From Fibrella aestuarina BUZ 2 (GTDB lineage Bacteria > Bacteroidota > Bacteroidia > Cytophagales > Spirosomataceae), in the NCBI RefSeq assembly GCF_000331105.1, contig NC_020054.1, positions 1 through 64,000 of the forward strand: a stretch of 64,000 bases of DNA, in the 5' to 3' direction. The notes under the pieces were generated by a model that worked only from the letters and a program-made list of their open reading frames with translations, did not search any database and was not told the origin of the DNA. Positions 1 through 64,000 of the stretch are shown here, one piece after another (the stretch's first letter is position 1; the number at the start of each line of letters is the position of its first letter). The translations under genes and the position numbers were made by a program.

Positions 1-1410
1 ATGCAACGCGAGGTTCAGCTAGTCTGGGCCAACTGCCTGCGCGTTATCCAGGAAATTGTGCCCGAAGCCAGCTATAAAACCTGGTTCGAGCCCATTGTGC
101 CGCTGCATCTGTACGGGAAGGTGCTCACCATTCAGGTCCCCAGCGTGTTCTTCTACGAATGGCTCGAAGAAAACTTCGTGCATGCCATCCGGAAGGCACT
201 CGACGCCGCCATTGGGCGCGACGGGCAACTCGAATATTCGATTGTGGTGGATCAGGGCGATGAAAAAAACCGCCCCATCGCGGTGAACATGCCCACCACC
301 AAAAGCCCGCAATCGGCCAAACCCGACAACGTCAGCCCCGATATTTTGCGGTCACCCTTTCAGCTTAAAGACCTCGATTCGCTCACGCTCGACTCGTACC
401 TCAATCCGTCGTACACGTTCGACAACTACGTGGAAGGCGACTGCAACCGGCTGGCGCGCAACGCGGGCTATGCGGTGGCGGCCCGGCCCGGCGTGACCTC
501 GTTCAACCCGCTGATGATCTACGGCGGCGTAGGGCTGGGAAAAACGCACCTGGTGCAGGCAATTGGCAACTACATCAAGAATACCAATCAGGACAAGTTT
601 GTGCTGTACGTGACGTCGGAGAAGTTCACGAACCAGTTTCTGAACGCCATTAAAGGCGATTCAATGCGCGATTTCAGCCAGTTCTACATGCAGGTCGATG
701 TGCTGGTGATCGACGACGTGCAGTTTTTGCAGAAGAAAGAGAAAACGCAGGACATCTTTTTCCACATCTTCAACCACCTGCATCAGTCGGGTAAGCAGAT
801 CATTATGACGTCGGACCGGCCTCCGCGCGCGCTCGACGGCCTCGACGACCGGTTGCTGTCGCGCTTCAAATGGGGCCTCACCACCGACCTGCAAACGCCC
901 GATCTGGAAACGCGCATCGCCATCATCCAGAAGAAGTTGCAGGCTGAAGGTGTTTATATCGACGACAGCGTGATCGAATACCTGGCGCACAGCATCAACA
1001 CCAACGTACGCGAGCTGGAAGGCGTAGTGGTGTCGCTGATGGCGCAAGCCTCGCTCAACCGCCGCGAAATCGACCTGGATCTGGCCAAAATGACGCTCCG
1101 CAACATCGTGCAGAACGACGAGAAGGAGATCAACATCGACACGGTGCAGGAACTGGTGGCCGATTTCTACAACATTTCCATTGCCGACCTGAAAGCCAAG
1201 AGCCGCAAACGTGAGGTGGTCTACCCACGGCAGGTAGCGATGTACCTGGCCAAAGAGCTCACCGAGCTGTCGCTGAAGTCGATTGGTTACCATTTCGGCG
1301 GGCGTGACCATAGCACCGTCATCCACGCCATTCAGATCGTTAATGATCTGTTGAAGGAGAAGCCCGACACCAAAGAAGAAATCGCCAAGCTGAAGGCGTA
1401 TTTCAAGTAA
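1..1410 (+). CDS. dnaA: Chromosomal replication initiator protein DnaA
   Basis: DnaA binds origin DnaA boxes, oligomerises with ATP and melts the origin to start chromosome replication. The 469-residue protein has the full family layout: an N-terminal protein-interaction domain (about 1-85), a short variable linker, an AAA+ domain with Walker A GGVGLGKT at 175-182 and Walker B VLVIDD at 234-239, and a C-terminal DNA-binding domain with the signature GGRDHSTV at 433-440. Length is normal. The ATG is base 1 of the window, so its promoter and any upstream DnaA boxes are not visible. dnaN does not follow; the next gene is an unrelated acyltransferase-like gene 65 bp downstream. Identification is essentially certain. 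Confidence 0.99.
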   Translation: MQREVQLVWANCLRVIQEIVPEASYKTWFEPIVPLHLYGKVLTIQVPSVFFYEWLEENFVHAIRKALDAAIGRDGQLEYSIVVDQGDEKNRPIAVNMPTTKSPQSAKPDNVSPDILRSPFQLKDLDSLTLDSYLNPSYTFDNYVEGDCNRLARNAGYAVAARPGVTSFNPLMIYGGVGLGKTHLVQAIGNYIKNTNQDKFVLYVTSEKFTNQFLNAIKGDSMRDFSQFYMQVDVLVIDDVQFLQKKEKTQDIFFHIFNHLHQSGKQIIMTSDRPPRALDGLDDRLLSRFKWGLTTDLQTPDLETRIAIIQKKLQAEGVYIDDSVIEYLAHSINTNVRELEGVVVSLMAQASLNRREIDLDLAKMTLRNIVQNDEKEINIDTVQELVADFYNISIADLKAKSRKREVVYPRQVAMYLAKELTELSLKSIGYHFGGRDHSTVIHAIQIVNDLLKEKPDTKEEIAKLKAYFK

Positions 1411-1475
1411 GGCGGTTGACGCCTGCCGTTTCGCGTTGATCATTGGTACGCCTATTCGACTGTGCCTAACCCGAT

Positions 1476-2465
1476 ATGGCTCTTGTTTTCCTCAACCGCG
1501 ACCAAATCAACGTACCTGAGTGGGATCGGTGCGTGGCTGCGGCTCACAACGCGCTGCTCTACGGCCATAGCTGGTACCTCGACGCCGTCACGAACGTACC
1601 TGAGGGGCCCCGCTGGTGCTGGGAAGGGCTGGTAGCGGTAGATACCGATGGGCACTATACGGCCGTGTTGCCGGTGCCGCTCCGCCGTCGTTGGGGCCAG
1701 TGGGTGGTGTATCAGCCGCTGTTTTGCCAGTTCGTGGCGATTTTCTCAGCGCAGCCCGTCGACCCGGTGCCTTTTCTCGAAGCCCTCCTGAAGCGCTATC
1801 GGTATGCCAGCCGTCTTTGCCTGGCATTGACCACCCTACTTCCCAACGTACCTGGCTATGTGCAGCAGCGGCTGTTACAGACGCACGTGCTTGCTCTTGA
1901 TGGCGCCGTGCCAAACTACACCGCCGACCGCCGCATGAACCTGCGCCGGGCGCATCGACGCGTCGCCCAGACGCCGGGCTGGCGCGTAACGGAATCGACC
2001 GACGTGCAACCGTTGCTGACCTTGTTTCGGGAAAACCACGCCGCTGCTATCGGCGTTGGCAAATGGGCTTATCCGCTGTTTACTCGGCTGTTTGTGGCCT
2101 TGCAAGCGCGTGGCCTGGGTACGTTGCACTATGCTTACGCGGATAACGTACCTGTAGCGGGCGCGTTCTTTGCCGAACAGCACGGGCGCATGATCTACCT
2201 CTTCAATGCAGCCGATGCCGAGGGGCGTCGCCTCAACGCCCGCACGATTTTGATCGACCAGTCCATCCAACGCGCAATAAGCCGGCTGAGTCCAACCGGC
2301 TTGTTTGATTTCGAAAGCCCTGATCAACCAGGCGTCGTGCAGTTTTACGAAAGCTTTGGCGCTACGCCTGCCCCCTACCTGCAACTTAGCTGGAACCGGC
2401 TGACAGCGGTGGAGCGGTGGACTCGGCTACTTCGCCAGACGATATTCAAACCTTATAGGTTTTGA
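1476..2465 (+). CDS. FemAB/GNAT-like acyltransferase family protein
   Basis: A 329-residue soluble protein without signal peptide or membrane segment. The middle and C-terminal part (about 145-300) resembles the FemAB/BioF2-like GNAT fold: a basic MNLRRAHRR stretch, a helix with FRENHAAAIG, and a strand-turn GAFFAEQHGRMIYLFNA followed by a helix carrying LIDQSIQRA. Such proteins usually transfer an acyl or aminoacyl group, often in cell-envelope or polysaccharide metabolism, but the substrate cannot be read from sequence. It follows dnaA on the same strand. Its last codons (KPYRF, TGA) lie inside a palindrome that also separates it from the convergent DUF3108 gene. The family call is moderately sure; the function is unknown. 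Confidence 0.7.
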   Translation: MALVFLNRDQINVPEWDRCVAAAHNALLYGHSWYLDAVTNVPEGPRWCWEGLVAVDTDGHYTAVLPVPLRRRWGQWVVYQPLFCQFVAIFSAQPVDPVPFLEALLKRYRYASRLCLALTTLLPNVPGYVQQRLLQTHVLALDGAVPNYTADRRMNLRRAHRRVAQTPGWRVTESTDVQPLLTLFRENHAAAIGVGKWAYPLFTRLFVALQARGLGTLHYAYADNVPVAGAFFAEQHGRMIYLFNAADAEGRRLNARTILIDQSIQRAISRLSPTGLFDFESPDQPGVVQFYESFGATPAPYLQLSWNRLTAVERWTRLLRQTIFKPYRF

Positions 2466-2480
2466 AAACCTATAGGGTTT
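2448..2480. repeat. Near-perfect palindrome AAACCTTATAGGTTTT, likely bidirectional terminator
   Basis: Two 16-bp arms around a single central base, with one mismatch. It covers the stop codon of the upstream plus-strand gene and lies 11 bp before the end of the convergent DUF3108 gene. The same palindrome, perfect, recurs at 19292-19324, and a looser copy at 44952-44998. A T-rich hairpin between convergent genes fits a bidirectional terminator, but the recurrence also fits a dispersed repeat family. Confidence 0.8.
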
Positions 2481-2491
2481 ACTAGGGCTTA

Positions 2492-3286
2492 TTAGTTGAA
2501 GCGCATGGGCTGTTTCAGGCCGCCGTAGCTTCGGATATCCATTTCGAGCGAGCCGATCGCCAGTTCCACTTCTACCTTGAGGGGCACCTTATTGCCATCG
2601 TCGGATACCCAGACCAGCAGCGCATCTTCCCCTTTAAAGAAGCCGTTCGTGGCCATAATCGGGCTTAGCTTGATGGAATTGATCTTGCCAAATTTGGTCT
2701 TGATCCGCTCTTTTCCCCGGTACCGCACTTTCATGTTATAAACCGTATCGTCGTAGAACGCCGGTACTTCGATCGTCGAGCCGACAGGTAGGCGGTTGAA
2801 ATCGATGGTGCGCAGGAAATAGTAGCTACTGACCACATCGTGCACATTATCAGGCACTTTGAACAAGTCTTTCTCCGTGCGTTCCTCGGCTTTCACCGTG
2901 TTGGCGCTGTGGTTGAAGGTCATGTTTTCCTCCTTCCGGTACTTGTTCTCCTGAATGTTGGTGTAAAACTTCTGCGGCAGAATCGCCGATGTATCAATGT
3001 AAGACCGCCAGGTGTCGCGTACCCGTGTAACGAGGTCAAACGCGCCGGTTGTACGCCCAAACACGTTGACCTGATAGCAGGGTCGGCTGTTGACGTTATA
3101 GAGCGCCGGCGCCACGTCAACAACGGCTTCGGCGGCATTGATGAATCCGTAGTGGACCCGATATTCGATATGTTCGCCCGGTCCGAAACTTGTGTTCACT
3201 ACCCGGCGGTAAGTATGGGCCGTCGTGAACGCAACGACGGCCAGTAACAAGGCGGAAAGACTCAGAATGATTCCTGTTTTTTTCAT
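2492..3286 (-). CDS. DUF3108 domain-containing exported protein
   Basis: A 264-residue protein beginning with a signal or anchor segment (about 5-24, ISLSALLLAVVAFTTA) followed by an all-beta region typical of DUF3108: an opening GEHIEYRVHYGFINAAEAVVDV, a central FYTNIQENKYRKEE stretch and a C-terminal DDGNKVPLKVEVELAIGSLEMDIRSY. The family is common in Bacteroidota and Proteobacteria and is probably periplasmic; no biochemical role is firmly known. It starts 13 bp after the stop of the upstream aminopeptidase gene, so the two probably form one transcript. The family assignment is fairly sure; function is not. Confidence 0.8.
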   Translation of the reverse strand: MKKTGIILSLSALLLAVVAFTTAHTYRRVVNTSFGPGEHIEYRVHYGFINAAEAVVDVAPALYNVNSRPCYQVNVFGRTTGAFDLVTRVRDTWRSYIDTSAILPQKFYTNIQENKYRKEENMTFNHSANTVKAEERTEKDLFKVPDNVHDVVSSYYFLRTIDFNRLPVGSTIEVPAFYDDTVYNMKVRYRGKERIKTKFGKINSIKLSPIMATNGFFKGEDALLVWVSDDGNKVPLKVEVELAIGSLEMDIRSYGGLKQPMRFN

Positions 3287-3299
3287 GGCAATCAGTCCG

Positions 3300-4349
3300 T
3301 TACAGCGAAGGATAGGTTTGTTTCAGGTGTCGTAAATAACGCGGAAAGTCGCTGTTAAATTGAGTAACAAACTCTGTTTTGAAGCGGTTCTGCTGTTTTC
3401 GATACGTTAAATAACTAACAAAATAAGCGTTGTTGGGCAGTTTGCTTTGTGTAGAGACCCGTCTTTGCGGCAAACGGTTGGCCGATCGTTCGTCGGTAAT
3501 GGTGTCGGCGGCCGTCACGATTTGCCCGATGGTTTTCCACTTCATTGCTTCTTTGACAGCCACGGGCGTCGTCGGTTTAAACGCTCTATAAATCTTGTCG
3601 AGTAGCTGGCTACCCCGCACCACATGTTGCGTATACCGTTCCCAAAAGGCCAGCCCGGCCCGATAATCGCGGTATACAGCCGACGTATCGCCGTACTTGT
3701 AGGCCATGAATCGCTCGGCACCGTAGTCACCTACGAAATCTGCGAGGTTTTCGTTGTACTCCAGGTTATCTTTTATGAATAACGTACCGTGCGTTAGCTC
3801 ATGAATGATCAACTGAGCCAGATCGCCTTCGTTGCGGCTCAGCATGCTCGACAGAATCGGGTCTTTGAAAAAACCGAGCGTTGAGTAGGCCGCGATGCCG
3901 CTGATGCGGGTGTCATACCCTTGCTTCCGCAGCAGACTATCAGCTTCCAAAAGTCGGGTTTTATCGAAAAAGCCCCTATAGGCAAACGTGCCAAGCAGCG
4001 GAATTGAGAATTGAACTGGCGTTAACGCGTACCGATCCGACCCGACCAGCATCCACATGAGCGGTTTACCTTCCTGATCATGAAAAGTGGTGAAGTTCTC
4101 CGACGGGTCAAGGCCGAGCGAATCCTGCGCAAACTGCTTGATTTCGCCAATCAGCCGGATCTTCACTTTGGCCGAGTCAGGTACGTTGGCGTCGGCCAGT
4201 ACCTCGGCTACGGGGCGGGTGTTGAGCATGATATGCAGTTGCCCTTTGGCCTGCATGTAGCCGTAACTGATGAGTTCGTGTTGCCAGATAGCGAGGCCCA
4301 GCAGGGCAACGAGCAAGACCAGGCCAATTCGTTTAAGGATGCGTTTCAT
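3300..4349 (-). CDS. Putative membrane-anchored aminopeptidase (PF10023-type zinc peptidase)
   Basis: The start is placed at the ATG at 4349 because it opens directly into a membrane anchor (about 8-22); an upstream in-frame start would add an unlikely 35-residue tail. The 349-residue product carries a zinc-peptidase motif HELTH at 183-187 and a downstream NENLADFVGDYGAERF segment whose Glu200 is a plausible third metal ligand. This is the pattern of the putative aminopeptidase family (COG4324-like). The protein probably faces the periplasm while anchored in the inner membrane. It is the first gene of a leftward pair with the DUF3108 gene. The peptidase fold is well supported; the substrate is unknown. 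Confidence 0.82.
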   Translation of the reverse strand: MKRILKRIGLVLLVALLGLAIWQHELISYGYMQAKGQLHIMLNTRPVAEVLADANVPDSAKVKIRLIGEIKQFAQDSLGLDPSENFTTFHDQEGKPLMWMLVGSDRYALTPVQFSIPLLGTFAYRGFFDKTRLLEADSLLRKQGYDTRISGIAAYSTLGFFKDPILSSMLSRNEGDLAQLIIHELTHGTLFIKDNLEYNENLADFVGDYGAERFMAYKYGDTSAVYRDYRAGLAFWERYTQHVVRGSQLLDKIYRAFKPTTPVAVKEAMKWKTIGQIVTAADTITDERSANRLPQRRVSTQSKLPNNAYFVSYLTYRKQQNRFKTEFVTQFNSDFPRYLRHLKQTYPSL

Positions 4350-4518
4350 GGACACTACCCACAACCGGGGTTCGGCGCAAAGGTCGCAAAGAAGTGATTC
4401 AATAACTTTTATGCCACCCAGTGGCCCAATTCCCTCTGTTTGGGGCGACGTCACAGTTAGTCATTGCGACTTTGCCCCGAAACGCCTAGGTTCGTACTAA
4501 ACTAAACAGGAACACACT

Positions 4519-4806
4519 ATGTCCGTCAACGCCAAACACTTAGCCACGTTCATTTTGGGAGCCGCCGCCGGAGTTGCCCTTAACAAATACCTGCAAACCG
4601 AAGAGGGTGAAAAAATGATGAGCGATCTGAAAGCAAAAGGGTCGGAACTGAAGGCTGAAGCGGAAACCGCCATGGACAATGCCCCTGAGTATTTCGACAA
4701 GCTCAGAGCACAACTCGCCGAGGTGTTCAAAGCCAACTTCCCCAACGCCGAACAAGCCATTGACGATGTATTGGGCAAAAAGCCCGAAACTGATCAGCCT
4801 GTGTAA
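4519..4806 (+). CDS. YtxH-like small protein
   Basis: A 95-residue protein with a short hydrophobic segment (about 8-22, LATFILGAAAGVALNKYL) followed by a charged amphipathic helical region rich in Lys, Glu and Ala. This is the general arrangement of YtxH-domain proteins, linked in other bacteria to stress or envelope functions. It probably spans or peripherally binds the membrane by its N-terminus. It stands alone, divergent from the aminopeptidase gene and followed by a strong terminator at 4835-4873. The assignment rests on overall layout rather than a catalytic motif. Confidence 0.65.
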   Translation: MSVNAKHLATFILGAAAGVALNKYLQTEEGEKMMSDLKAKGSELKAEAETAMDNAPEYFDKLRAQLAEVFKANFPNAEQAIDDVLGKKPETDQPV

Positions 4807-4834
4807 AGCCAGCTACTTTATTGCCTTACAACGT

Positions 4835-4873
4835 CCCTGCCACGCCCTATACGACGACGTGGCAGGGATTTTT
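4835..4873 (+). terminator. Intrinsic terminator after the YtxH-like gene
   Basis: Perfect 10-bp arms CCCTGCCACG (4835-4844) and CGTGGCAGGG (4858-4867) around a 13-nt loop, followed by ATTTTT. It sits 28 bp after the stop codon and ends transcription before the phosphate transporter gene. Confidence 0.9.
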
Positions 4874-5053
4874 GCGTTACATCGTATTACTACTCAAGCC
4901 TTTGAGTAATCAGCGTACATTATTATCGAAATATTACCCTAATGTTAACAACATAACAATTTCTTAATGCTTCGTGATTTTATAGCCCGACTATTCCCCT
5001 GAACTTTGCGGCACAAGTACACCAATATATCATTTAACTAATTGTCAGTCAGT

Positions 5054-6472
5054 ATGTTCGGCTTAGAAACCGGCGTTTTTATTCTGCTTGCTTTCTGTTT
5101 TTTAGCAGCCCTCGCATTTGAATTCATTAACGGCTTTCACGACACCGCCAACGCCGTTGCCACCGTCATCTATACCAATTCGCTCCAACCCACGCAGGCC
5201 GTTGTGTGGTCGGGCATCGTCAACTTTATCGGTGTAATTACCGGGGGCGTCGGGGTTGGTATGAGCATCGTCAACCTGCTTCCGGTCGAGTTGCTCATCG
5301 ATCAGAATGTGTATCACAGCATCGCCATGGTGCTGGCGCTGCTCTTCTCAGCCATCATCTGGAACTTCGGCACCTGGTATTTTGGCCTGCCCGCTTCCAG
5401 CTCTCACACACTCATCGGCGCCATTCTGGGCGTAGGGTTGGGCTATGCGCTCCTGCCTGAGAACACCACGGGTGTAGCCGCCGTCAACTGGGACAAAGCC
5501 AAAGAGATTTTCATGGCGCTGTTTCTGTCGCCGCTGGTTGGCTTCAGTATGGCGGTGGTGCTCATGTTTATGCTGCGCCGCGCCCTCAACAAGCAGGTGC
5601 GGAAGCAGATTTTCGACGAACCGGTGCCGGGCGAACAGCCACCGATGTGGATTCGGGGCCTGCTCATTACCACCTGCACGTTGGTTAGCTTCTTCCACGG
5701 GCGCAACGACGGCCAGAAAGGCATCGGGCTGGTGATGCTCATCCTGATTGGGGTGCTGCCCGCCTTCTTCGCCATCAACAACAAAATCGACATTGCCGAA
5801 CTGAAGCCCGATCTGGTCAAGGTACAGCAGATTGTCGCCCGGATTGACACGACCCAGCTCTCGGATAGTGATTTGGAGCGTTTCCAGAAGATCAACACGA
5901 GCATCGCCAACCTCACGCCGGTAGTCGAGGCCAACCAGTTCGAGCAAAAAGACGCCCTCCTGATCCGCAAAGCCCTGCTGACCATCAGCAGCAACAGCAA
6001 AAAGCTGATCGCCAGCGAAGACGTGAAGCTCAGCGAGGCCGACAAAGAAGCCTTGCAGGCTACGGCGGTTAAGGAAGAAAAAGGCATTCGCCGCTTCACC
6101 GACCACGCACCCTTCTGGGTCATTCTGGCCATCTCGCTCTCGCTGGGCTTTGGCACAATGGTGGGCTGGAAACGCATCGTGGTTACGGTGGGGGAGAAGA
6201 TTGGTAAGTCACACCTTACTTATGCGCAAGGTGCCTCCGCCGAACTCGTGGCGGCAACCACCATCGGTCTGGCGTCGTGGTTTACGTTGCCGGTGAGTAC
6301 CACGCACGCACTGTCGTCGGGGATTGCCGGGTCAATGGTGGCCAGCAAAGGCATCAAAAATCTACAGGCCAAAACGATCCAGAGCATTCTGCTCGCCTGG
6401 GTGCTCACGCTCCCGATGGCCATCCTGATCTCGGCTACGTTGTTCATGCTGTTCCGCTGGCTGCTGGGTTAA
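5054..6472 (+). CDS. PiT-family inorganic phosphate transporter
   Basis: Inner-membrane low-affinity phosphate symporter. The 472-residue product has the duplicated PiT architecture: N-terminal signature GFHDTANAVAT (about 25-35), a first membrane block, a second-half HGRNDGQKGIGL segment, a long charged hydrophilic insert (about 235-345), and a C-terminal block with LPVSTTHALSSGIAGSM. ATG at 5054 is preferred over the in-frame TTG 12 bp upstream because it gives the usual N-terminus. A Porin_O_P gene follows after 74 bp, suggesting that outer- and inner-membrane phosphate passage are encoded together. No PhoU-like DUF47 partner is present. Family identification is very secure; the transported ion is inferred from the family. 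Confidence 0.95.
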   Translation: MFGLETGVFILLAFCFLAALAFEFINGFHDTANAVATVIYTNSLQPTQAVVWSGIVNFIGVITGGVGVGMSIVNLLPVELLIDQNVYHSIAMVLALLFSAIIWNFGTWYFGLPASSSHTLIGAILGVGLGYALLPENTTGVAAVNWDKAKEIFMALFLSPLVGFSMAVVLMFMLRRALNKQVRKQIFDEPVPGEQPPMWIRGLLITTCTLVSFFHGRNDGQKGIGLVMLILIGVLPAFFAINNKIDIAELKPDLVKVQQIVARIDTTQLSDSDLERFQKINTSIANLTPVVEANQFEQKDALLIRKALLTISSNSKKLIASEDVKLSEADKEALQATAVKEEKGIRRFTDHAPFWVILAISLSLGFGTMVGWKRIVVTVGEKIGKSHLTYAQGASAELVAATTIGLASWFTLPVSTTHALSSGIAGSMVASKGIKNLQAKTIQSILLAWVLTLPMAILISATLFMLFRWLLG

Positions 6473-6546
6473 TCGCCGAACGTACCTGACCCACTGACCG
6501 GGCAAGCGGGCGGGGGGCGAGCAGGGACCTCTTTATCTGATTCACT

Positions 6547-7962: not shown

Positions 7963-7981
7963 TCACTCTTTACCCTACTCT

Positions 7982-8374: not shown

Positions 8375-8424
8375 GGATAATAGAGTCAGTGGCTGCGCAT
8401 CGTTAACGGGCAGCCGGTTCAATG

Positions 8425-10452: not shown

Positions 10453-11550
10453 ATGCAACAACAAATCGATGTCTGGATACGCGCCGTTATTCGCTGGTTT
10501 GGGTACGTACCCAACCGCGACCTATCGGGCTGGATCCTGCTGATCATCTCCGTCATTGCAGGGCTGGCAACCACATTTGTGCTCACGCAGATTATCCGGC
10601 TGATTGCCCGGCGCAAGAATAACCAGGTTTTGGTCTTGCTGCGCCGGTATGTCAGAACGGCTTTTTATTTCTGGCTACCCTCTCTGTTTTTCCTCACCGG
10701 CACCAACATTCAGCCCGAACGATTCTTGCGGCGGCATCCCGTAGCTGACAAAGCCGCCGAGGTGTTATTTCTGCTCACCAGCACCTGGCTGGCGTTGCGG
10801 CTGCTGAAACTGGGCGAACTGCTGATGGTCCGCAGTTACGACATCAGCAGCGACACCAACCTCTCGCAGCGCAAGTTTGTTACGCAGGTGCAGTTTATCC
10901 GGCGGATCATCTCGACGATTCTGGTGCTGGTCAGTTTCTCGCTGCTGCTGCTCAATTTCCAGGGAAGCCGTAAACTCGGGGCCAGCGTGCTCACCTCAGC
11001 CGGTATCGTATCGGTGGTGGTGGGCTTTGCCGCCCAGAAATCGCTCGGCAACCTGCTGGCGGGCATCCAGATCGCCTTCACGCAGCAAATCCGGCTCGAC
11101 GACGCCGTGGTGGTCGAAAACGAGTGGGGGCGGGTGGAAGAAATCAACCTGACCAACGTGGTGGTTCGGCTCTGGGACCGACGACGGCTCATTCTGCCGA
11201 TCACGTATTTCGTGGAAAACCCGTTTCAGAACTGGACCCGCTCCGACGCCAGCATTACCGGGGCGATTCTGCTCTACCTCGACTACAATACCCCGATCGA
11301 CAAAGTGCGCGACAAAGCGAAGCAGATTGCCGAAGCCGACCCGCTCTGGAACGAACAGGTGTTTGTGGTGCAGATCACCGACACCACCCCGACGGGCATT
11401 GTGCTCCGCGTGCTGGTGTCGGCCAACGATGCTCCGTCGGCCTTTGACCTGCGCTGTCACCTGCGCGAGGCGCTCATCACGTACCTGCGCGACGAACATC
11501 CGCAAAGCCTGCCTCAGGTACGTATCCAGAGCGGAGCCGGGCTGGCTTAG
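10453..11550 (+). CDS. MscS-family mechanosensitive ion channel
   Basis: Inner-membrane channel that opens under membrane tension to release solutes on osmotic downshock. The 365-residue product has four or five N-terminal membrane segments (about 25-48, 70-86, 98-118, 148-170, 178-195), then the pore-lining helix region with FAAQKSLGNLLAGIQIAF and the beta domain motif RLDDAVVVENEWGRVEEINL and LPITYFVENPFQNWTR. A C-terminal alpha/beta cytoplasmic domain completes the fold. Length is slightly above the minimal MscS because of extra membrane helices. It is transcribed alone and divergently from the exbB-like gene. Family assignment is very secure. Confidence 0.95.
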   Translation: MQQQIDVWIRAVIRWFGYVPNRDLSGWILLIISVIAGLATTFVLTQIIRLIARRKNNQVLVLLRRYVRTAFYFWLPSLFFLTGTNIQPERFLRRHPVADKAAEVLFLLTSTWLALRLLKLGELLMVRSYDISSDTNLSQRKFVTQVQFIRRIISTILVLVSFSLLLLNFQGSRKLGASVLTSAGIVSVVVGFAAQKSLGNLLAGIQIAFTQQIRLDDAVVVENEWGRVEEINLTNVVVRLWDRRRLILPITYFVENPFQNWTRSDASITGAILLYLDYNTPIDKVRDKAKQIAEADPLWNEQVFVVQITDTTPTGIVLRVLVSANDAPSAFDLRCHLREALITYLRDEHPQSLPQVRIQSGAGLA

Positions 11551-13098: not shown

Positions 13099-13226
13099 AT
13101 TGTTGAAGCAAATAAGTAAAGGTTTCTATATAGACTTTATATGTTTTGAAAAGTAACTCCCGCTGCGGTGTTAAAAGTAAGTCGAACCGCGCGCCGGCTT
13201 TTCAGCGCAAAGCCAATCCCATTGTT

Positions 13227-14555
13227 ATGCGCACGTTACTTGTCCTGCTAAGCCTGTGGTCGCTGTCGGCCGCCGCCCAATCCTACCAGCCTACGGCCGA
13301 TAATCTGGCCGCCCGTAAGGCCTTTCAAGACGACAAATTTGGCCTCTTCATTCACTGGGGCGTCTACAGTCAGCTCGGTGATGGCGAGTGGGTTATGAAC
13401 AACCAGCAGATTCCGATCAAAGACTACGAGAAGTTACCCACCTTTTTCAACCCGACGCAATTTGATCCTAAAGCCTGGGTAAGTATGGCCAAAAATGCGG
13501 GCATGCGCTACATCACCATCACCAGCAAACACCACGACGGCTTTGCTATGTGGCACTCCAAAGTGAGCCCGTACAACATCGTCGACGCTACGCCCTACAA
13601 GAAAGACGCCCTGAAGATGCTGGCCGATGAGTGCAAGGCCCAGGGCATCAAGTTGTTCTTTTACCACTCCCACCTCGACTGGCACCACCCCGACTATTTC
13701 CCCCGTGGTAAAACCGGCGGCACCTGGACTGGCCGCCCCGAAAAAGGCAATTTCGACACGTACCTGCGCTACATGGACGCCCAGCTGACCGAGCTGCTAA
13801 GTGGCGACTATGGTCCCATTGCCGGTATTTGGTTCGATGGCTGGTGGGATCAGGCGAGAGACGAGATGAACAAAAGCACCCGCGACACCAAAGTCGACTG
13901 GCAATTACGACGTACCTACGACCTCATTCACAAGCTGCAACCCGCCGCCCTGATCGGCAACAACCACCACGTGGCCCCGTTTGACGGCGAAGATTTCCAG
14001 ATGTTTGAGCGCGACCTGCCCGGCCAGAATACCTTCGGCTACAACACCAACGAAGTGAGCCAGCTTCCCCTCGAAACCTGCGAGACCCTCAACGGGGCCT
14101 GGGGCTTTAACCTGCGGGACAACCATTATAAGTCGCCCAAAGAGCTGGTTCGGTACCTGGTGAAAGCCGCTGGGCGTAACGCCAATTTCCTGCTCAACGT
14201 GGGCCCGATGCCCAACGGCAAAATTCAGCCGGAGTTTGTCAACGCGCTGGCCGAAGTGGGTAAATGGACGCAGCAGTTTGGCGAAACCGTCTATGGCACC
14301 CGCGGCGGGCCGGTTGGTCCACGTCCCTGGGGCGTCACAACGGCCAACGGTAAGCGGGTCTTCGTGCACATCCTCGATTGGAACGACGCCCAACTGACGC
14401 TGCCCACCCTGCCAACCCGGGTCAAATCAGCCCGGATTTTCGGGAGTAAACAGGCCGTGAAAGTAAGCCAAACCGCCGACGGCGTGCTCCTGACCATGCC
14501 CACCGCCCCCGCCGCCAACGCTATTGACACCATCGTCGAGTTGGAAACGGAATAG
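13227..14555 (+). CDS. Secreted alpha-L-fucosidase (GH29)
   Basis: Hydrolyses alpha-linked fucose from glycans. The ATG at 13227 opens a clear signal peptide (MRTLLVLLSLWSLSAAAQS), so this start is preferred to an in-frame TTG 81 bp upstream; the product is 442 residues. GH29 hallmarks are FGLFIHWGVYSQLGDGEWV near the mature N-terminus, TSKHHDGFAMWHSKVSPYN, and IAGIWFDGWWD, which holds the likely nucleophile Asp. The C-terminal beta domain includes LLNVGPMPNGKIQPEFV. It is probably periplasmic or surface-exposed. Paralogous lipoproteins lie on both sides. A long inverted repeat follows the stop. No sulfatase or SusCD pair is adjacent. Confidence 0.95.
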   Translation: MRTLLVLLSLWSLSAAAQSYQPTADNLAARKAFQDDKFGLFIHWGVYSQLGDGEWVMNNQQIPIKDYEKLPTFFNPTQFDPKAWVSMAKNAGMRYITITSKHHDGFAMWHSKVSPYNIVDATPYKKDALKMLADECKAQGIKLFFYHSHLDWHHPDYFPRGKTGGTWTGRPEKGNFDTYLRYMDAQLTELLSGDYGPIAGIWFDGWWDQARDEMNKSTRDTKVDWQLRRTYDLIHKLQPAALIGNNHHVAPFDGEDFQMFERDLPGQNTFGYNTNEVSQLPLETCETLNGAWGFNLRDNHYKSPKELVRYLVKAAGRNANFLLNVGPMPNGKIQPEFVNALAEVGKWTQQFGETVYGTRGGPVGPRPWGVTTANGKRVFVHILDWNDAQLTLPTLPTRVKSARIFGSKQAVKVSQTADGVLLTMPTAPAANAIDTIVELETE

Positions 14556-24121: not shown

Positions 24122-24240
24122 AATGAATAATGGACGATGTACAATGAATGATGTATAGTGCGGTCCGCCGCTGCGGTATAATGAGCCGAGTTACGGGCCC
24201 GCATCATTTATTGTACATTGTACATCATTCATTATACATT
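24122..24240. repeat. Long AT-rich inverted repeat with GC-rich centre
   Basis: Left arm 24122-24153 and right arm 24202-24240 are imperfect reverse complements built from the words AATGATG, ATGTACAATG and AATGAATAATG; the right arm contains one extra TGTACAA-type unit. The 48-nt centre includes a GC-rich segment (GCGGTCCGCCGCTGCGG). It fills the gap between two leftward genes and reaches the last base of the GNAT stop codon. Confidence 0.8.
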
Positions 24241-30117: not shown

Positions 30118-30906
30118 ATGAAATTGTCGGCTGGCTGCGATTTACAGTTCGATGTAGAGGCTGAAACGCCTATGGTCCTGATGCTACGCCCCCGGTCGGG
30201 TGCCGGGCAATGGGTGATCAGCGAAGAATACACCATCGTGCCACCCGTACCTGTTACTGAGTTTACCGATTTGTATGGTAATCTGTGCCAGCGCCTGATG
30301 GCCCCCGCCGGTCCGCTTCAGGTACGTACCCAGATGGTCGTTCAAACCGACGACGGCATTGATGTGCAGCCCGGCGCGCCACTGACACTGGTGCAGGATC
30401 TGCCCGATGATGTACTGCATTTTCTGCTGCCCAGCCGCTATTGCCCCGCCGATCAGCCCGAGATTAGCCAACAGGCCAGCTCGATTATCGAGGGCGTGGA
30501 GCCCGGCTACGATCAGGCCGAAGCCATCCGCCACTGGATCAACACCAACCTGACGTATCAGTATGGCACCAGCGATGCTACCACGTCGGCACTGGAAACC
30601 CTGCAAAAACGCATTGGTGTTTGCCGCGATTTCACCCACCTGGGCATTTCGCTGTGCCGCAGCCTGAATATCCCGGCCCGGATGGTGGTGGGGTATCTGC
30701 ACGAACTGAAGCCCATGGACCTGCACGCCTGGTTTGAGGCCTATGTGGACGGCCGCTGGTTTACGTTCGACGCTACCCAAACAACGCCAAAAGGCAACCG
30801 GATTACGGTTGCCTATGGTCGTGATGCGGCCGATGTGGCCTTTGTGACTCAGTTTGGCCCGGCTACGCTCCAGAATATGAGTGTCTGGGTCGATACCGCG
30901 TCCTAG
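30118..30906 (+). CDS. Transglutaminase-like protein
   Basis: A 262-residue protein of the bacterial transglutaminase-like superfamily. ATG at 30118 is preferred over an in-frame TTG 57 bp upstream because the domain begins soon after (LSAGCDLQFDVEAETPMVLML). The catalytic triad is visible as Cys169 (RIGVCRDFTHLGISLCR), His203 (MDLHAWFEAYVDGRW) and Asp218 (FTFDATQTTPKGNRI). An N-terminal beta domain (about 1-95) precedes it. Relatives are peptidase- or amidase-like and sometimes sit near ATP-grasp or alpha-E genes; no such neighbours are present. No signal peptide is seen, so it is probably cytosolic. Confidence 0.9.
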   Translation: MKLSAGCDLQFDVEAETPMVLMLRPRSGAGQWVISEEYTIVPPVPVTEFTDLYGNLCQRLMAPAGPLQVRTQMVVQTDDGIDVQPGAPLTLVQDLPDDVLHFLLPSRYCPADQPEISQQASSIIEGVEPGYDQAEAIRHWINTNLTYQYGTSDATTSALETLQKRIGVCRDFTHLGISLCRSLNIPARMVVGYLHELKPMDLHAWFEAYVDGRWFTFDATQTTPKGNRITVAYGRDAADVAFVTQFGPATLQNMSVWVDTAS

Positions 30907-57370: not shown

Positions 57371-57406
57371 TCGATAGGTCTCTGAACGACTGACGCGTCG
57401 CGTTTA

Positions 57407-57451: not shown

Positions 57452-57495
57452 GTCATTCTTCCGTCAGCCATCAACCGCAAAACATTATTCTACGC

Positions 57496-58944: not shown

Positions 58945-59940
58945 TTACTCACCGGTCTCCAACACCACCTCGGTCACAGGCACGCCAAAATCGGGCATCC
59001 CGTCGGGCAGCCATCCGATGGGTTGCAGGCGTGGGGTCCGTTCGTTTTCGCAGCCCAGATTGGGGCGGGGGTTGGCGTGGTAGAGCAACCAGGTCTGGCC
59101 CGTTTCGGTCTTGAAAAAACACCCATGCCCCGGCCCATACGTATCTGTTTCGGGCGAAGTGCTGAAGACCGGTTCCTGGCATTTCGTCCATGAGGCGGCG
59201 GCCATCAGGTCACTGTCGGTGCGGGCGTGCAACAGGCCAAACGCGTACTCATCCGTCCAGCAGCCACTGGCTGAGTACGCTACAAAGAGGTGGTCGCCGT
59301 GGTGCAGAAAGGCCGGAGCCTCGTTCACCAGAATCCGATTCCGAACACTCGCCGGATCGGCGTCGCGATTGTGCCGCTCCCAGGGCAGGTGGGGCTCAGA
59401 CAGCAGCAGCCGGTCGCCCACACAGGTCCAGGGGTTGCTCATGCGGCAGAGGTAGATGTTCTGCTGTTCGTTCTGATCCCCCGCCCAGCCCGACCACGCG
59501 AAGTACAACTGACCGTTCAGGTCGATCACCGTTCCGTCGATACCCCATTTGTTATCGGGTGTCACCAGTTCGTTCTTCACCGTCCAACGCCCGTCGATAG
59601 GATCGCAGGCATCGTTTTCCAGCACCCAGATTCGTTGCCTGTCGGGCGTTTCCCGGTTAGCCGCGCTCAGGTAGGCATACCAGCATTTGTGGCCCTGCCC
59701 GTTGTCGAGGTAATGCATCTCGGGGGCCCACACACTGCCCGAAAAAGGCCCGGATGCCGGCGCTTCCCAAACCACTTTCCCTTCGCTTTGAGCCAGATCG
59801 GCCAGGCTTTTCACCTTCCAGATCGTCAGGTTGCTGTTGGTTGAATGGGTATAATAGAAATAGCCGTCGTGGCAGAGCGCCCAGGGATCGGGGCCGTAGT
59901 TCAGCAGCGGATTAACGACGGCGGCAGGTTGTGCGGTCAT
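58945..59940 (-). CDS. Glycoside hydrolase family 43 protein
   Basis: A 331-residue five-bladed propeller enzyme. The N-terminal NYGPDPWALCHDGYFYYTHS holds the likely general base Asp18, and WAPEMHYLDNGQGHKCWYAYLSA, GIDGTVIDLNGQLYFAWSG, VNEAPAFLHHGDHLFVAYSASGCWTDEYAFGLL and GPGHGCFFKTETGQTWLLYHA match conserved GH43 segments. Members cut arabinan, xylan or related side chains. No signal peptide is seen, so it may act on imported oligosaccharides inside the cell. It is convergent with the M61 gene (stop codons adjoin) and divergent from the ABC permease gene. Confidence 0.93.
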   Translation of the reverse strand: MTAQPAAVVNPLLNYGPDPWALCHDGYFYYTHSTNSNLTIWKVKSLADLAQSEGKVVWEAPASGPFSGSVWAPEMHYLDNGQGHKCWYAYLSAANRETPDRQRIWVLENDACDPIDGRWTVKNELVTPDNKWGIDGTVIDLNGQLYFAWSGWAGDQNEQQNIYLCRMSNPWTCVGDRLLLSEPHLPWERHNRDADPASVRNRILVNEAPAFLHHGDHLFVAYSASGCWTDEYAFGLLHARTDSDLMAAASWTKCQEPVFSTSPETDTYGPGHGCFFKTETGQTWLLYHANPRPNLGCENERTPRLQPIGWLPDGMPDFGVPVTEVVLETGE

Positions 59941-60148
59941 GGTTGTAGTAGCCTAAAGGGACTTACGTATACGCACAACTCGCCAATGTCAGGTTGGTTA
60001 TCGAAAGCTTAGGCACGGACCCGGCGTGTCCGGCCCGCTGTCCAGTTTCGGACAACGTACCCAGCATCCGTGCCGCAATCGGGACCAGAAGCGGCCTTTA
60101 GCGCATATGGCACGGGCCTTGAGCGTCCTTCGTAAACACGCAACGGGC

Positions 60149-62530
60149 ATGTTCCGAACCTATCTTCTTCTAGCGCTACGTCAGTTTGGGCGCAACCGAC
60201 TGTATTCAGCCCTCAACATCGGCGGTCTGGCGGTGGGCCTGGCGGTCAGCGCCTACATCAGCCTGTATGTGTGGCACGAATTTCACTACGACCAGTTTCA
60301 TCCGCTGGCCGAACGTACCTACCGGGCACTGTCTGTCTCGAACTACGACGGGCAGGAAATGACCATGACCAACATGCACGAGTCGTTTGGCCGGGAAGCG
60401 AAACGGCAATTGCCCGAGGTCGAACAGGTCGTGCGTTTTTCGGCGGGAATGGGCCCCGTCTGGGTGCAGGCAGATGCTGACCACCAGCAAAAACCGGCCA
60501 ACGTGGGCTTTGCCGATCCATCGCTACTAACGGTCATGGGCTTCAGCCTGGCTGAGGGTGACCCCCGAATGGCACTGACCGAGCCGGGGAAGATTGTGCT
60601 GACACAGCCGCTGGCCGAGCAGCTATTTGGCCGTCAGAACCCGGTGGGCAAGACCGTCACCTACGACAAAAACTACCCATTGACCGTCAGCGGCGTGTTC
60701 GCGGATCTGCCCACCAACACTATTTTCCAGTTCGACGCGCTGGTATCGCTGGCCTCTATGCCAATGCTGGGCGAGCGAAAAAAGCAGAGTTGGGAATATG
60801 CCGGTTTCCTGGACACGTACCTGGTGCTACGCCCCGGAACAGAGGTGGCTAAAACGGCCGAAAAGCTGAAGTTGATCAATAAGGGCGTCAAGTTTATGGA
60901 TGCCAAAGCGTCGTTCCTGCTCGAAGCCCTGCCTGATCTTCACCTGCACAGTCATTCGGTTTCGCCCGACACACGCCAGAACCTGTACATTTTTCTGGGT
61001 ATTGCGCTGCTCATTCTGGCCCTGGCCACTACCAACTACGTCAGCCTGACTACGGCTCGCGCCACGCAACGCGCCCGTGAAGTGGGCGTTCGGAAAGCCA
61101 TTGGCGGGCAACGGCGCGAGTTGGTCATGCAATTCTATACCGAATCGTTTCTGACCACCACGCTGGCGGTTGGGCTAGGCCTTGGCCTGCTGGCGCTGTT
61201 CTTTCCGTGGATAAACCAGTTGCTGGGAATTCGTATGAATGGTCGCGTTTTCGATGACGCCAGCTACTGGCTGGTACTGGCTGGCCTGTGGCTTGGCTGT
61301 TCGTTGCTGGCCGGAGGTTATCCCGCTTTTCTGCTGTCTGGTTTTCGGCCGCAGGATGCGCTCAAAAGCACGGTATCGGGCGGCAAACGGGGCGCAGGTA
61401 TGCGCCGTGTGTTGACCACGGGTCAGTTCACGGCATCGGCTGGTTTGCTCATGTGCAGCCTGATCTTCTTCGCCCAGATGCGCTTTCTGCGGACAAAAAA
61501 TATTGGCCTCGACCGGGCACAGGTAGTGGCTGTTGCCATTGACAAAGAGATGGCTCCACAATACGCGGCGTTTCGTGATGCTGTCCGACAATGGAATGGT
61601 GCCGATCGGGTTGCCGCTACCAATACGCGCCTGTTTACTCCGTTCGTGTCTATTTATTTTTTGACGGTAAAAAAGACCCAAAAACAATCGATGGTCAACG
61701 TGCTGACGGTTGATAAATCGTTTTTCAGGACGCTCGGTATCGGCTGGAACCTGCCACCCGCTGGATGGAGCGATAAAGCTATTACTAAAGAGTTACAGGT
61801 GTATAATCAGCAGGCGATGAAAGAGGCGGGCGAGACGGTCCGCGTGGTGCCGCACCCTGACCCGTTTGGTTTTAGTAATCAGGGGCTGCAAGGCGTCGTG
61901 GCAGACTTCAAGCTCTTCGGATTAAAGCATGAACAGTCGCCGGTGATGCTCTCGGTGGTGAGTGATACCAGCCGGGCCGTGGTAGAGAATGGCGGTTACC
62001 TGCTGGTGAAATTGAACCCGAACCAGGACGTACCTGTGGCGCTGGGGCAGCTTAAACTCCTGTACGAACAAGCCAACCCACCCGCCCCATTCGATTATTA
62101 TTTCCTCGACGATGCCTACAACAAGCTGTACGAAAAAGAGCAGCAGTTGGCTACCCTTGTCAATGGCTTCACGGGCCTGACTTTGCTGGTGGCCTGCCTC
62201 GGCTTGCTGGGGCTGATGACGTTTACAGTCGAGGCCCGTACCAAAGAGATCGGCATCCGAAAAGTGCTCGGGGCCAGTGTGGCTAGCATCGTCGGGTTGC
62301 TGAGCCGGGAGCTGGTGCTGCTGGTGTCGATTGCCGTGTTGCTCGCCTCACCGTTGGCCTGGTGGGCCATGACGAAGTGGCTGGCCGATTTCGCCCATCA
62401 CATCGACATCCGCTGGTGGGTATTTGCCGCCGCGGGGGCTGGCTCCCTACTCATTGCGCTGCTCACGATTGGCGTGCAAAGCATCCGGGCCGCGTTGGCC
62501 AACCCCGTGGAGTCGCTGCGCAGCGAGTGA
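60149..62530 (+). CDS. MacB/FtsX-type ABC transporter permease
   Basis: A 793-residue membrane protein. ATG at 60149 gives MFRTYLLLALRQFGRNRLYSALNIGGLAVG, the common start of Bacteroidota FtsX-type permeases; the first membrane helix is about 20-42. A MacB-like periplasmic domain follows (about 45-270), then two FtsX domains, with EVGVRKAIGGQRRELVMQFYTES and TKEIGIRKVLGASVASIVGLLSREL. No ATPase gene is adjacent, so it must use an ATPase encoded elsewhere. Role is probably export of lipid, peptide or toxic compounds. It is divergent from the GH43 gene. Confidence 0.93.
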   Translation: MFRTYLLLALRQFGRNRLYSALNIGGLAVGLAVSAYISLYVWHEFHYDQFHPLAERTYRALSVSNYDGQEMTMTNMHESFGREAKRQLPEVEQVVRFSAGMGPVWVQADADHQQKPANVGFADPSLLTVMGFSLAEGDPRMALTEPGKIVLTQPLAEQLFGRQNPVGKTVTYDKNYPLTVSGVFADLPTNTIFQFDALVSLASMPMLGERKKQSWEYAGFLDTYLVLRPGTEVAKTAEKLKLINKGVKFMDAKASFLLEALPDLHLHSHSVSPDTRQNLYIFLGIALLILALATTNYVSLTTARATQRAREVGVRKAIGGQRRELVMQFYTESFLTTTLAVGLGLGLLALFFPWINQLLGIRMNGRVFDDASYWLVLAGLWLGCSLLAGGYPAFLLSGFRPQDALKSTVSGGKRGAGMRRVLTTGQFTASAGLLMCSLIFFAQMRFLRTKNIGLDRAQVVAVAIDKEMAPQYAAFRDAVRQWNGADRVAATNTRLFTPFVSIYFLTVKKTQKQSMVNVLTVDKSFFRTLGIGWNLPPAGWSDKAITKELQVYNQQAMKEAGETVRVVPHPDPFGFSNQGLQGVVADFKLFGLKHEQSPVMLSVVSDTSRAVVENGGYLLVKLNPNQDVPVALGQLKLLYEQANPPAPFDYYFLDDAYNKLYEKEQQLATLVNGFTGLTLLVACLGLLGLMTFTVEARTKEIGIRKVLGASVASIVGLLSRELVLLVSIAVLLASPLAWWAMTKWLADFAHHIDIRWWVFAAAGAGSLLIALLTIGVQSIRAALANPVESLRSE

Positions 62531-62603
62531 CAGGGCTAGTTCAGGCTGTAGAATAGCCTTTAATTGCCTTACGTTTAACGGTATAACGTTCTCAAAAAAG
62601 GAG

Positions 62604-63044
62604 ATGACTGAAGCGGTGTTTGCTTTCCGAATTAATGTTGAGAAACCCGTTGCTGGTGCCGTTTATGGTTTGCAAAAAGGCAGCGGGAACGACTACGAAA
62701 CCGTTCAACAGCAAACCGCTAGCTCCGAGGCACTCACGTTTACCATTGCCCTTTCTGCGAAGAGAACCAAAGAGGGCGACCTGGTTTTGTACGGGCCTTT
62801 TTGCCAGGGACCGCCCCATAACCGGTTTCTCTATCTGGACATTGGCAGCTATGCGGGCCAGGGGAATGCCCCTTTCAGCGGCCGGCTGAAAATTCCTCTC
62901 CCCAAACTTGCTGACGAGCTCAGTAGCGCAGCCGTAGCTGGTCGCACCTTGGTAGCCACCGTCTACGGCACCAATGAAAAGACGGGCCGCCCTGTTGGGG
63001 GCACGGGGAAACCAGTTGATGGCTGGAAGCCTGACAGACGCTAA
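62604..63044 (+). CDS. DUF5990-family protein
   Basis: A 146-residue soluble protein. ATG at 62604 is preceded directly by AAAAAAGGAG, an unusually strong Shine-Dalgarno for this window but with almost no spacing; a longer frame upstream overlaps the permease gene in another frame and looks spurious. The pattern is FRINVEKPVAGAVYGLQKGSGNDYETVQQQTASSEALTFTIALSAKR, then FCQGPPHNRFLYLDIGSYAGQ and GRLKIPLPKLADEL, which fits the DUF5990 family, of unknown function. A Gly/Lys-rich tail follows. It is transcribed in the same direction as the permease and the PA14 gene. Confidence 0.8.
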   Translation: MTEAVFAFRINVEKPVAGAVYGLQKGSGNDYETVQQQTASSEALTFTIALSAKRTKEGDLVLYGPFCQGPPHNRFLYLDIGSYAGQGNAPFSGRLKIPLPKLADELSSAAVAGRTLVATVYGTNEKTGRPVGGTGKPVDGWKPDRR

Positions 63045-63155
63045 GCCTAATTACTCTGCTCGCACACAGGCCCGGTCGCTCACAATTACGGCGCGTTTTA
63101 TGGAATGTCAGGACTAACTGAATCCATTGAAACACGACGAAATGACGCAATTAGT

Positions 63156-64000
63156 ATGCTACGGGGGCTGTTGTTGGTGGGTGGATGGCTAGCGGCCACT
63201 ACTGGTTGGGGGCAAGTCGCGAAAAATGCGCCCGCTGGTGGCAACGGTCTGGTTGGGGAGTACTATGCTGGTTCAGGCTTCAACCGGAAAGTGCTAGTGC
63301 GCACCGACCCTCAGGTTGATTTTAGCTGGGACGGCTACACATTGCCCGCTCCCGGCGTGACGCCCAACTCGTTTTCTGTTCGCTGGACGGGGAAAGTGTA
63401 TGCACCCGTGAGTGGCCCTTACAAATTCACGGCTGTGGTTGATGACGGGATTCGGATCTGGGTAGATGGCAAGCTGGCGATGGACGAATGGCACTACCGG
63501 AAACAGAAGTTGTCCGGGCAGTCGGTGACGCTACAGGCCGGCAAGTTTTACGACCTGAAAATCGAGTACTACAACGCCCGTAACGGTGGGTACGTACAGC
63601 TGAACTGGAACTTGGTGAATGAGGCTGGGAAATCGCCCGCTTTCGAGAACGCTCCGCAACAGAAAGTATCCGGTCAGTTCTTGTACAATGGCCCCCCATC
63701 GAAGGCGATGCCGTTACCGACAACCAAGCCTGTATCCGCCACCAAGCCGAAACCCGCCCCGCCTGTCGTTGTCCCGAAAGTGGCCATCAAAGCAAAGCAG
63801 GTCGCTAGTCAGCCCGCCCGCCCGCGAACGCCAGCCGTCAGCTCGGTGCCGGTATCACCATCAGTGAGTAGCGCCACGACACAGTCGGTTGTAACACCAG
63901 CTAGCCCGCCAGCCGTAAAGCCGATCGCTTTCGCGCAGAGCGATTATCAGCTACTGCCTTCCTCCTACGAAGCACTGAATGAGTGGGCCGCCACCTTGCG
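63156..64000 (+). CDS. Secreted PA14-domain protein, cut by the window end
   Basis: A partial gene whose reading frame stays open to base 64000. ATG at 63156 starts a signal peptide (MLRGLLLVGGWLAATTGWGQ); another in-frame ATG at 63105 is possible. A PA14 domain follows (about 33-150): GLVGEYYAGSGFNRKVLVRTDPQVDF, FSVRWTGKVYAPVSGPYKFTAVVDDGIRIWVDGKLAMDEW and GKFYDLKIEYYNARNGGYVQLNW. Then comes a long Pro/Ala/Lys/Ser-rich linker (about 170-260) and a new segment YQLLPSSYEALNEWAATL. PA14 domains bind carbohydrate or act in adhesion. The C-terminal part, likely decisive for function, lies outside the window. Confidence 0.88.
   Translation, partial: MLRGLLLVGGWLAATTGWGQVAKNAPAGGNGLVGEYYAGSGFNRKVLVRTDPQVDFSWDGYTLPAPGVTPNSFSVRWTGKVYAPVSGPYKFTAVVDDGIRIWVDGKLAMDEWHYRKQKLSGQSVTLQAGKFYDLKIEYYNARNGGYVQLNWNLVNEAGKSPAFENAPQQKVSGQFLYNGPPSKAMPLPTTKPVSATKPKPAPPVVVPKVAIKAKQVASQPARPRTPAVSSVPVSPSVSSATTQSVVTPASPPAVKPIAFAQSDYQLLPSSYEALNEWAATL

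Follow-up and report, generated by a model that had tools for sequence, protein, structure and literature searches.

Genome-wide enrichment of the DNA word ACGTACC in Fibrella aestuarina, with a sister word in another genus of the family and a tentative uptake-like reading

The heptamer ACGTACC (GGTACGT on the opposite strand) was found 83 times in the first 64,000 nucleotides of contig NC_020054.1 of Fibrella aestuarina BUZ 2, a whole stretch referred to here as the window, where 8.0 copies are expected from base composition. At the DNA level the enrichment ran through the whole genome, equally on both strands, and it was seen in chromosomal DNA as well as in Fibrella plasmids. A sister dialect, A[A/G]GTACCY, was present in a genome from another genus of Spirosomataceae. 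By analogy with known systems, ACGTACC may be a lineage-specific, highly iterated DNA recognition motif, acting as an uptake- or recombination-preference signal with dialects; this is the reading that we favour, tentatively. Among the open-licence papers listed by literature searches, none described such a word in Spirosomataceae.

Enrichment, shape and placement of the word

An excess of about tenfold had been estimated by eye in a preliminary description of the window, and exact string search agreed with it. The copies, 45 read as ACGTACC and 38 as GGTACGT on the plus strand, made this the commonest 7-mer of the window when both strands were pooled. Dinucleotide shuffling gave 7.6 ± 2.8 copies (maximum 15 in 200 shuffles), and shuffling of synonymous codons inside each gene, with genes called by our own open reading frame script, gave 17.8 ± 3.6 (maximum 32 in 500 shuffles) against the 75 genic copies observed. 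The window count thus exceeded composition tenfold and the codon null, which is stricter, 4.2-fold, and neither of these shuffles, both suggested earlier as ways of refuting the excess, came near the observed counts.

The enrichment extended to the rest of the genome, as the same description had asked to be checked. The genome of 6.94 Mb comprises contig C2 of 6,775,444 bp, which opens with the window and a dnaA gene, and contig C1 of 161,819 bp, which was treated as a plasmid. It contained 8,209 copies (4,060 and 4,149 by strand), compared with 686 (350 and 336) of the reversed word. The density of 1.18 per kb was close to the 1.30 per kb of the window, with similar enrichment. Further analysis was carried out on a chromosome sample of 59 stretches (1.224 Mb, 1,492 copies), including 888 script-called genes with 1.02 Mb of coding DNA. 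Sense copies in the three frames numbered 266, 271 and 164 against 117, 47 and 10 under the codon null, and antisense copies 316, 105 and 130 against 31, 44 and 11; the intergenic DNA of the sample held 230 copies against 35 under an order-2 model. Occurrence in coding and non-coding DNA and in several codon phases was thus confirmed, all six frames and the intergenic DNA lying above their nulls. The idea that genic copies mostly read ACGTACC on the coding strand held in raw counts (701 sense and 551 antisense; 47, 28 and 8 intergenic in the window), but not against the codon null, where the antisense copies were the more enriched (6.4-fold versus 4.0-fold). Selection, or drive, on DNA rather than on protein was accordingly upheld by the six frames and the intergenic DNA, and also by the conservation of sites above control words between loaded species that is described below. 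Causation between word and protein looks reversed: Asn-Val-Pro was about twice as common in loaded proteome samples (511 and 445 per million residues) as in two weakly loaded species (219), rates that rest on about 173, 22 and 12 occurrences, and the word appears to shape the proteins.

The word is longer than its core. Its extended form is AACGTACC followed by a pyrimidine-purine (YR) step, mostly TG or CA. In the chromosome sample, A stood directly before the core in 49% of the copies and C two before it in 45%, and a YR step followed in 1,188 of 1,492 (TG 551, CA 423, CG 137, TA 77), compared with 28% after other TACC. The form AACGTACCTG was 48-fold above the order-2 model, and the signal faded about ten bases out. 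The palindrome GGTACGTACC was present only 174 times in the genome, against 8,209 word sites, so that the word is not palindromic.

Replichore strand bias was not observed in the 1.22 Mb sampled (412+/448- and 313+/319-, the terminus being assumed opposite the origin), and no strand skew switching at origin or terminus, as for an FtsK-orienting or segregation signal, was present in it. The strand-oriented segregation signal offered as one option in the preliminary description was hence not supported, and a replication-strand signal was ruled out for the bulk of the excess. Regional density was Poisson-like (standard deviation 0.25 per kb between stretches, 0.247 expected), and neighbouring sites showed neither even spacing nor helical phasing. 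For genes of at least 600 bp, the first 50 bp 3' of stop codons carried 2.45 sites per kb, compared with 1.09 in the 50 bp that precede start codons, and several of these post-stop sites formed hairpins with a second copy. An inverted copy of the 9-mer within 90 nt was found at 22 of 230 intergenic sites versus 16 of 637 anagram sites (Fisher p 3.5e-5), and at 23 of 1,262 coding sites. Two 20-kb stretches at 4.88 and 4.99 Mb, whose mobile character was judged mostly by inspecting translations and which were the only two examined, contained 7 and 9 copies instead of about 24 (0.35 and 0.45 versus 1.22 per kb).

In the window, ACGTACC was located on the plus strand with its first base at 1510, 1594, 1846, 2146, 3782, 6480, 6564, 7790, 10505, 11479, 13758, 13910, 15312, 15336, 15976, 16027, 16741, 19099, 22783, 24547, 30324, 33999, 37017, 38248, 41070, 41178, 42850, 43455, 46530, 47691, 47756, 49108, 49894, 49981, 51287, 51461, 51971, 52099, 53851, 55384, 56931, 60055, 60313, 60815 and 62028. 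GGTACGT, the minus-strand copies, started at 2118, 4180, 6614, 9444, 10502, 11517, 12515, 21720, 22686, 24520, 24617, 24888, 25168, 25632, 26609, 28752, 29604, 30321, 32305, 32319, 34531, 36406, 37039, 37723, 40590, 42015, 42339, 42462, 42825, 43574, 49081, 49941, 51852, 52512, 55258, 55795, 56705 and 63589. Three of these places had been pointed out before, and their positions were exact (AACGTACCT at 1509, ACGTACC at 13758 and CGTACC at 60314). All three lie on the plus strand: the first is an example of the extended form, AACGTACCTG from 1509 (core 1510..1516, reading Asn-Val-Pro in gene 1476-2465), the second is ACGTACC followed by TG (13758..13764, Thr-Tyr-Leu in gene 13146-14555), and the third is AACGTACC followed by TA (60313..60319, Arg-Thr in gene 60026-62530). 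The palindromic double site was found by exact search at 10502..10511 and 30321..30330.

Relatives, plasmids and a sister word

Judged by MutL, the named organisms closest to the window are species of Fibrella and Fibrivirga. Four relatives were named through 100% identical DNA over 4.5-6.9 kb, namely Fibrivirga algicola (G001), F. rubiginis (G002), F. forsythiae (G003) and F. aquatilis (G004). Three of the five species of the genus Fibrella, that is F. aestuarina, Fibrivirga algicola and F. forsythiae, were heavily loaded. When 90 genomes were searched for AACGTACCYR and its reversed control, the counts were 3,396/28, 2,722/30 and 3,853/32 in these three, 356/36 in F. rubiginis and 358/31 in F. 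aquatilis; no other genus of the family exceeded 242 (G021, control 27). The 10-mer excess of F. rubiginis and F. aquatilis is about tenfold compared with about a hundredfold, so that these two were called weakly loaded. They were not word-free, as ACGTACC occurred 1,845 times against 679 and 1,784 times against 756 in their whole genomes; sampled coding DNA of F. aquatilis contained 25 copies (codon null 13.2 ± 3.4), and that of four F. rubiginis contigs 14 (9.8 ± 3.5). In the loaded relatives, stretches of 20 kb held between 7 and 27 copies.

Between loaded species, sites were retained at about twice the rate of control words. Taking best blastn pieces as orthologous, 22 of 50 sites were intact in Fibrivirga algicola and F. 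forsythiae, versus about 20% of 80 anagram words, and 5 of 80 in F. rubiginis and F. aquatilis, where the anagram words again gave about 20% (Fisher p 2.7e-4 and 1.3e-3, with anagram counts rebuilt from the rounded fractions). At named loci of the same four species, which may overlap these counts, 7 of 12 and 0 of 9 sites were intact, respectively. The differences between species arise mostly by substitution: of the 80 sites aligned to the weakly loaded pair, 74 were ungapped, being either identical or substituted, and 6 had a gap, while against the loaded species gaps were seen at 8 of 50 (14 of 130 overall). The loaded species formed a clade in a seven-gene tree (89.6/85), and the weakly loaded pair stood beside F. 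aestuarina in the single-gene tree of MutL (81/84). The weak load may reflect fading after loss of use in F. rubiginis and F. aquatilis, or else a gain in the loaded clade.

A related word was detected in another genus. In G027 the top word under the codon null was AAGTACC[C/T], with the variants AGGTACCT and AACTACCC, and AAGTACCC was present 6,594 times genome-wide against 257 for the reversed control. Weaker excesses of AAGTACCC were observed in G020 (1,664 versus 281), G018 (892 versus 200) and G044 (953 versus 212), and in F. aestuarina it was not enriched (146 versus 246). AAGTACC was raised in all six frames in 140 kb of G027, with 1.84 sites per intergenic kb and close intergenic pairs that were inverted in 13 cases and direct in 9. 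The words AACGTACCYR and A[A/G]GTACCY have GTACCY in common and differ mainly just before it. The survey of other genera was made on 20-kb stretches, and G009 and G022, which gave less than 8 kb, were dropped. A dialect ACCGTAAAC suspected in G057 was missing from the top-ranked words once the codon null was applied, and in G021 the weaker excesses of ACGTAACG (15 versus 2.8) and ACGTAGCG (15 versus 2.9) were not claimed as a dialect. G106, from another family, showed ACGTACC 844 times against 264 reversed, which may be a remote or an independent instance. CATG is part of the reversed control words, and in certain genomes from other families (G103, G114 and G147) words with CATG were very rare, which suggests avoidance of CATG there, possibly by restriction. 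The ratios in those genomes are therefore not comparable, and the conclusions rest on the codon nulls for F. aestuarina and G027.

Plasmids of Fibrella also carried the word. The 40 kb sampled from the 161.8-kb contig C1 contained 39 copies, and the plasmids of Fibrella sp. ES10-3-2-2 contained 218 in 200 kb (CP155472.1) and 57 in 50 kb (CP155474.1), all of them being loaded. CP155473.1 had 59 in 100 kb, and its transfer region shares about 92% identity with Spirosoma plasmids. In F. rubiginis, the plasmid-like contig C5 was loaded as well, with 34 copies in 32 kb, with 8.2 kb at 94% identity to CP155472.1, and four other contigs had 15 in 80 kb, near the null. Four stretches of Spirosoma and Runella plasmids held 2 to 10 copies in 50 kb, the highest genic ratio among them being 9 versus 3.5 ± 1.3 in S. 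linguale. The YR step was weaker on the plasmids (C1 and ES10) than on the chromosome (146 of 314 versus 1,188 of 1,492), with similar core density. We read the load as following long residence in a loaded Fibrella host, for any resident replicon. By annotation, genes for a cyclic GMP-AMP (cGAMP) synthase and a phospholipase of a cyclic-oligonucleotide-based antiphage signaling system (CBASS) lie on a Fibrella plasmid (L267, CP155474.1 44363-46514), and a CBASS phospholipase lies on a Runella plasmid (L270).

Other repeats were noticed as well. An unrelated degenerate repeat with units like CATTGTACATT and CATTATACATT, often back-to-back inverted, is scattered in Fibrella and Rudanella DNA; it is found in the window at 24210-24240 (intergenic) and also at loci L074, L031, L046, L061, L055, L048, L070, L066, L092 and L009. 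Dense local repeats like AGGGCATGCCCTGTCT in L160 (G011) and like GGTTATAGTT in L162 (G016) are perhaps CRISPR (clustered regularly interspaced short palindromic repeats) or other repeat arrays.

Candidate machinery and weighing of the explanations

These findings agree with a process of sequence-specific recognition that acts on lineage-resident DNA and whose specificity switches between genera. The nearest known phenomenon is that of the DNA uptake sequences (DUS) of Neisseriaceae and the uptake signal sequences (USS) of Pasteurellaceae, with their shared-core dialects, inverted pairs at terminators and gaps in genomic islands, and for this reason a preference in uptake or recombination was favoured. 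Among the options first offered for the word, an uptake signal would, by this analogy, be the best fit, given the dialects, the inverted repeats in hairpins and the few copies in the two mobile-looking stretches. When kin exchange DNA by uptake or recombination, a sequence-specific DNA-binding protein would prefer word-bearing DNA; copies born by mutation would be transferred and recombined more than the unmarked allele and would accumulate to about one per kb. A shift in the specificity of the reader would yield a new dialect, and with disuse the word would fade. ComEC (PF03772), the inner-membrane channel expected of such a system, was present in 8 of 8 genomes.

Several observations weigh against this proposal. 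ComEC was found in heavily and weakly loaded species alike, and the ATPase of type IV pili and of the type II secretion system (T2SS; PF00437) was above the cut-off in none of the 8 genomes, with weak matches in 5, whereas it passed in 13 of 14 control genomes. Known uptake-sequence systems use type IV pili. No reader protein was identified, surface DNA receptors not having been searched for, and the open-licence papers listed gave no account of competence in the genus Fibrella. The load on the plasmid stretches is close to that of the chromosome, which a drive by chromosomal transformation does not need. A transfer region of 12.3 kb shared between plasmids had 6 sites in the Fibrella copy and 4 and 6 in two Spirosoma copies, a result that is neutral as to residence in a loaded host; another shared piece of 6.7 kb had 4 sites in Fibrella versus 0. 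Spacing was random to slightly clustered (117 gaps below 50 bp, 84 expected), close intergenic pairs were only slightly more often inverted than direct (22 versus 17), close pairs in genes were more often direct (88 versus 67), and position within genes showed no significant bias by orientation, unlike the gene-end bias of Pasteurellaceae. Since the pilus ATPase was searched for and not found, the word was not filed as a DUS or USS, and the uptake reading is one by analogy. A divergent filament may nevertheless exist, because the T2SS of Bacteroidetes is called peculiar in the available part of one account (PMC6668835).

The methylation target and the iterated motif like HIP1 (highly iterated palindrome 1) that had been offered as options for the word come together in the model of Elhai (2015) for cyanobacterial HIPs, in which a DNA methyltransferase targets the word or a sequence within it, and repair guided by methylation generates and maintains the sites. 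We consider this unlikely here. As a description HIP1-like is apt, with a word in coding and non-coding DNA and on plasmids, and with alternate motifs in relatives as reported for HIPs (PMC4390886, available part); yet the core is not a palindrome, as the 174 copies of GGTACGTACC against 8,209 sites show, and near-miss words, whose depletion might result from directed repair, showed none overall when weakly loaded species served as the reference (ratio 0.90, control range 0.68-1.33). The methylation option was further weakened by the enzymes. Methyltransferases were searched by four families (PF01555, PF00145, PF02384 and PF07669), and the 59 protein rows from 8 genomes, some of them the same protein and three distinct ones from Fibrivirga algicola, with weak locus-less matches such as frames of 945 and 1,729 residues of that genome left out, contained none linking all three loaded species at at least 35% identity over at least 100 residues. 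PF01555 and PF02384 had no match in Fibrivirga algicola, and a C5 enzyme 65% identical between F. aestuarina and F. forsythiae was absent from Fibrivirga algicola among the proteins compared. The large gene of a C5 methyltransferase (729 aa open frame), with a 65% identical relative in F. forsythiae, lies in the mobile-looking, word-poor DNA at about 4.88-5.01 Mb of C2 (L068, L069). As a separate observation, open frames about 1,700 aa long that weakly match an Eco57I-type methyltransferase were seen at C1:44480 and in G001, G002, G004 and G020, that is in heavily and weakly loaded genomes, and a gene of similar length on the Fibrella plasmid CP155472.1 (73492-78582) is annotated as a methyltransferase.

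A Chi-like role, in which the word stops a nuclease of the AddAB/RecBCD type and promotes recombination so that word-bearing DNA survives breakage, would explain the dialects by species-specific Chi and agrees with the 7-mer core, the genus-specific words, the load on chromosome and plasmids and the sparseness in the two mobile-looking stretches. Chi is usually leading-strand biased, though, and no such bias was present in the replichores; no Chi of this length is known to be as dense, and we regard this role as rather improbable. The same grade is given to binding by an abundant protein that organises the nucleoid or the chromosome, with weak selection at each site, for which the even regional density, the presence on plasmids and the flexible YR step adjoining the core would speak, and against which stand the weak load of a sister pair of species and the lack of helical phasing; no nucleoid-type site array is known to switch dialect between genera. 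That the word is a side effect of codon usage, of amino-acid pairs or of base composition is very improbable: some frames have a sizeable codon-null expectation (117 in the Thr-Tyr frame, with 266 seen), but excesses of 4.0- and 6.4-fold were left after synonymous shuffles, intergenic DNA held 230 copies versus 35, and dinucleotide shuffles gave 7.6 versus 83, which rules out such a source for the bulk of the excess. Many copies throughout a genome could also be the footprint of a mobile element, or its insertion scars, an explanation that is scarcely credible in view of the 74 of 80 aligned sites without a gap and the lack of any longer conserved unit around the 7-10 bases; insertion scars are contradicted by both.

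Uptake of DNA tagged by a sequence is known in two families, Neisseriaceae and Pasteurellaceae, which both rely on type IV pili. A bolder version of the uptake-like reading, possible but doubtful, is that these words constitute a third, independently evolved family of dialect-forming self-recognition words, in Bacteroidota and without type IV pili, with a new receptor, kin DNA favoured in Spirosomataceae and plasmids tagged too. If true, it would mean a third origin of sequence-tagged uptake and offer a handle on DNA exchange in these bacteria. Even with another function, the heavily and weakly loaded sister species and the dialect in another genus allow a direct test of the old question why such words (DUS, USS, HIP, Chi) build up in genomes.

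Comparison with known systems

Chi words are species-specific. The Fibrella word resembles Chi as an over-represented short word, a class named in the available part of PMC4390886, and differs from it in lacking replichore strand bias. With HIP1 and the alternate HIPs it shares the high iteration of a short word that is low or replaced in some lineages and whose function is unsettled (same source), but HIPs are palindromic and tied to methyltransferases, whereas the Fibrella word is asymmetric and had no common methyltransferase among those compared.

The density of USS in Pasteurellaceae is similar to that of the Fibrella word. The USS of the Hin and Apl types are likewise two dialects of a 9-mer, which have a fixed inner core in common and differ next to it (PMC12616744, available part). 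A difference is that USS are biased to gene ends, according to the available part of PMC2346458, a bias that the Fibrella word lacks, together with the flanking AT tracts.

The DUS differ in that Fibrella belongs to Bacteroidota, has no type IV pilus ATPase above the cut-off (PF00437 in 0 of 8 genomes) and no known ComP-like reader, in that the words are unrelated in sequence, and in the plasmid stretches, which are about as loaded as the chromosome. In Neisseriaceae, eight dialects with a common 3-base core were described by Frye et al. (2013), inverted pairs tied to terminators being present in every genome that has a dialect and some members having no DUS dialect (PMC3630211, available part). 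The Fibrella word is like the DUS, as far as they are described in the available parts of PMC3630211 and PMC7371117, in its thousands of short, non-palindromic copies in genic and intergenic DNA, in dialects across a family with a common inner core and relatives without the word, and in terminator-tied inverted pairs. DUS are also scarce in genomic islands; the Fibrella word was sparse in the two mobile-looking stretches, and plasmids carry it. With both DUS and USS it shares a density of about one per kb on both strands (8,209 copies in 6.94 Mb, 4,060/4,149), related dialects with a common core (ACGTACC-YR in three species and A[A/G]GTACCY in G027), inverted pairs in intergenic hairpins (22 of 230 versus 16 of 637) and the ComEC channel.

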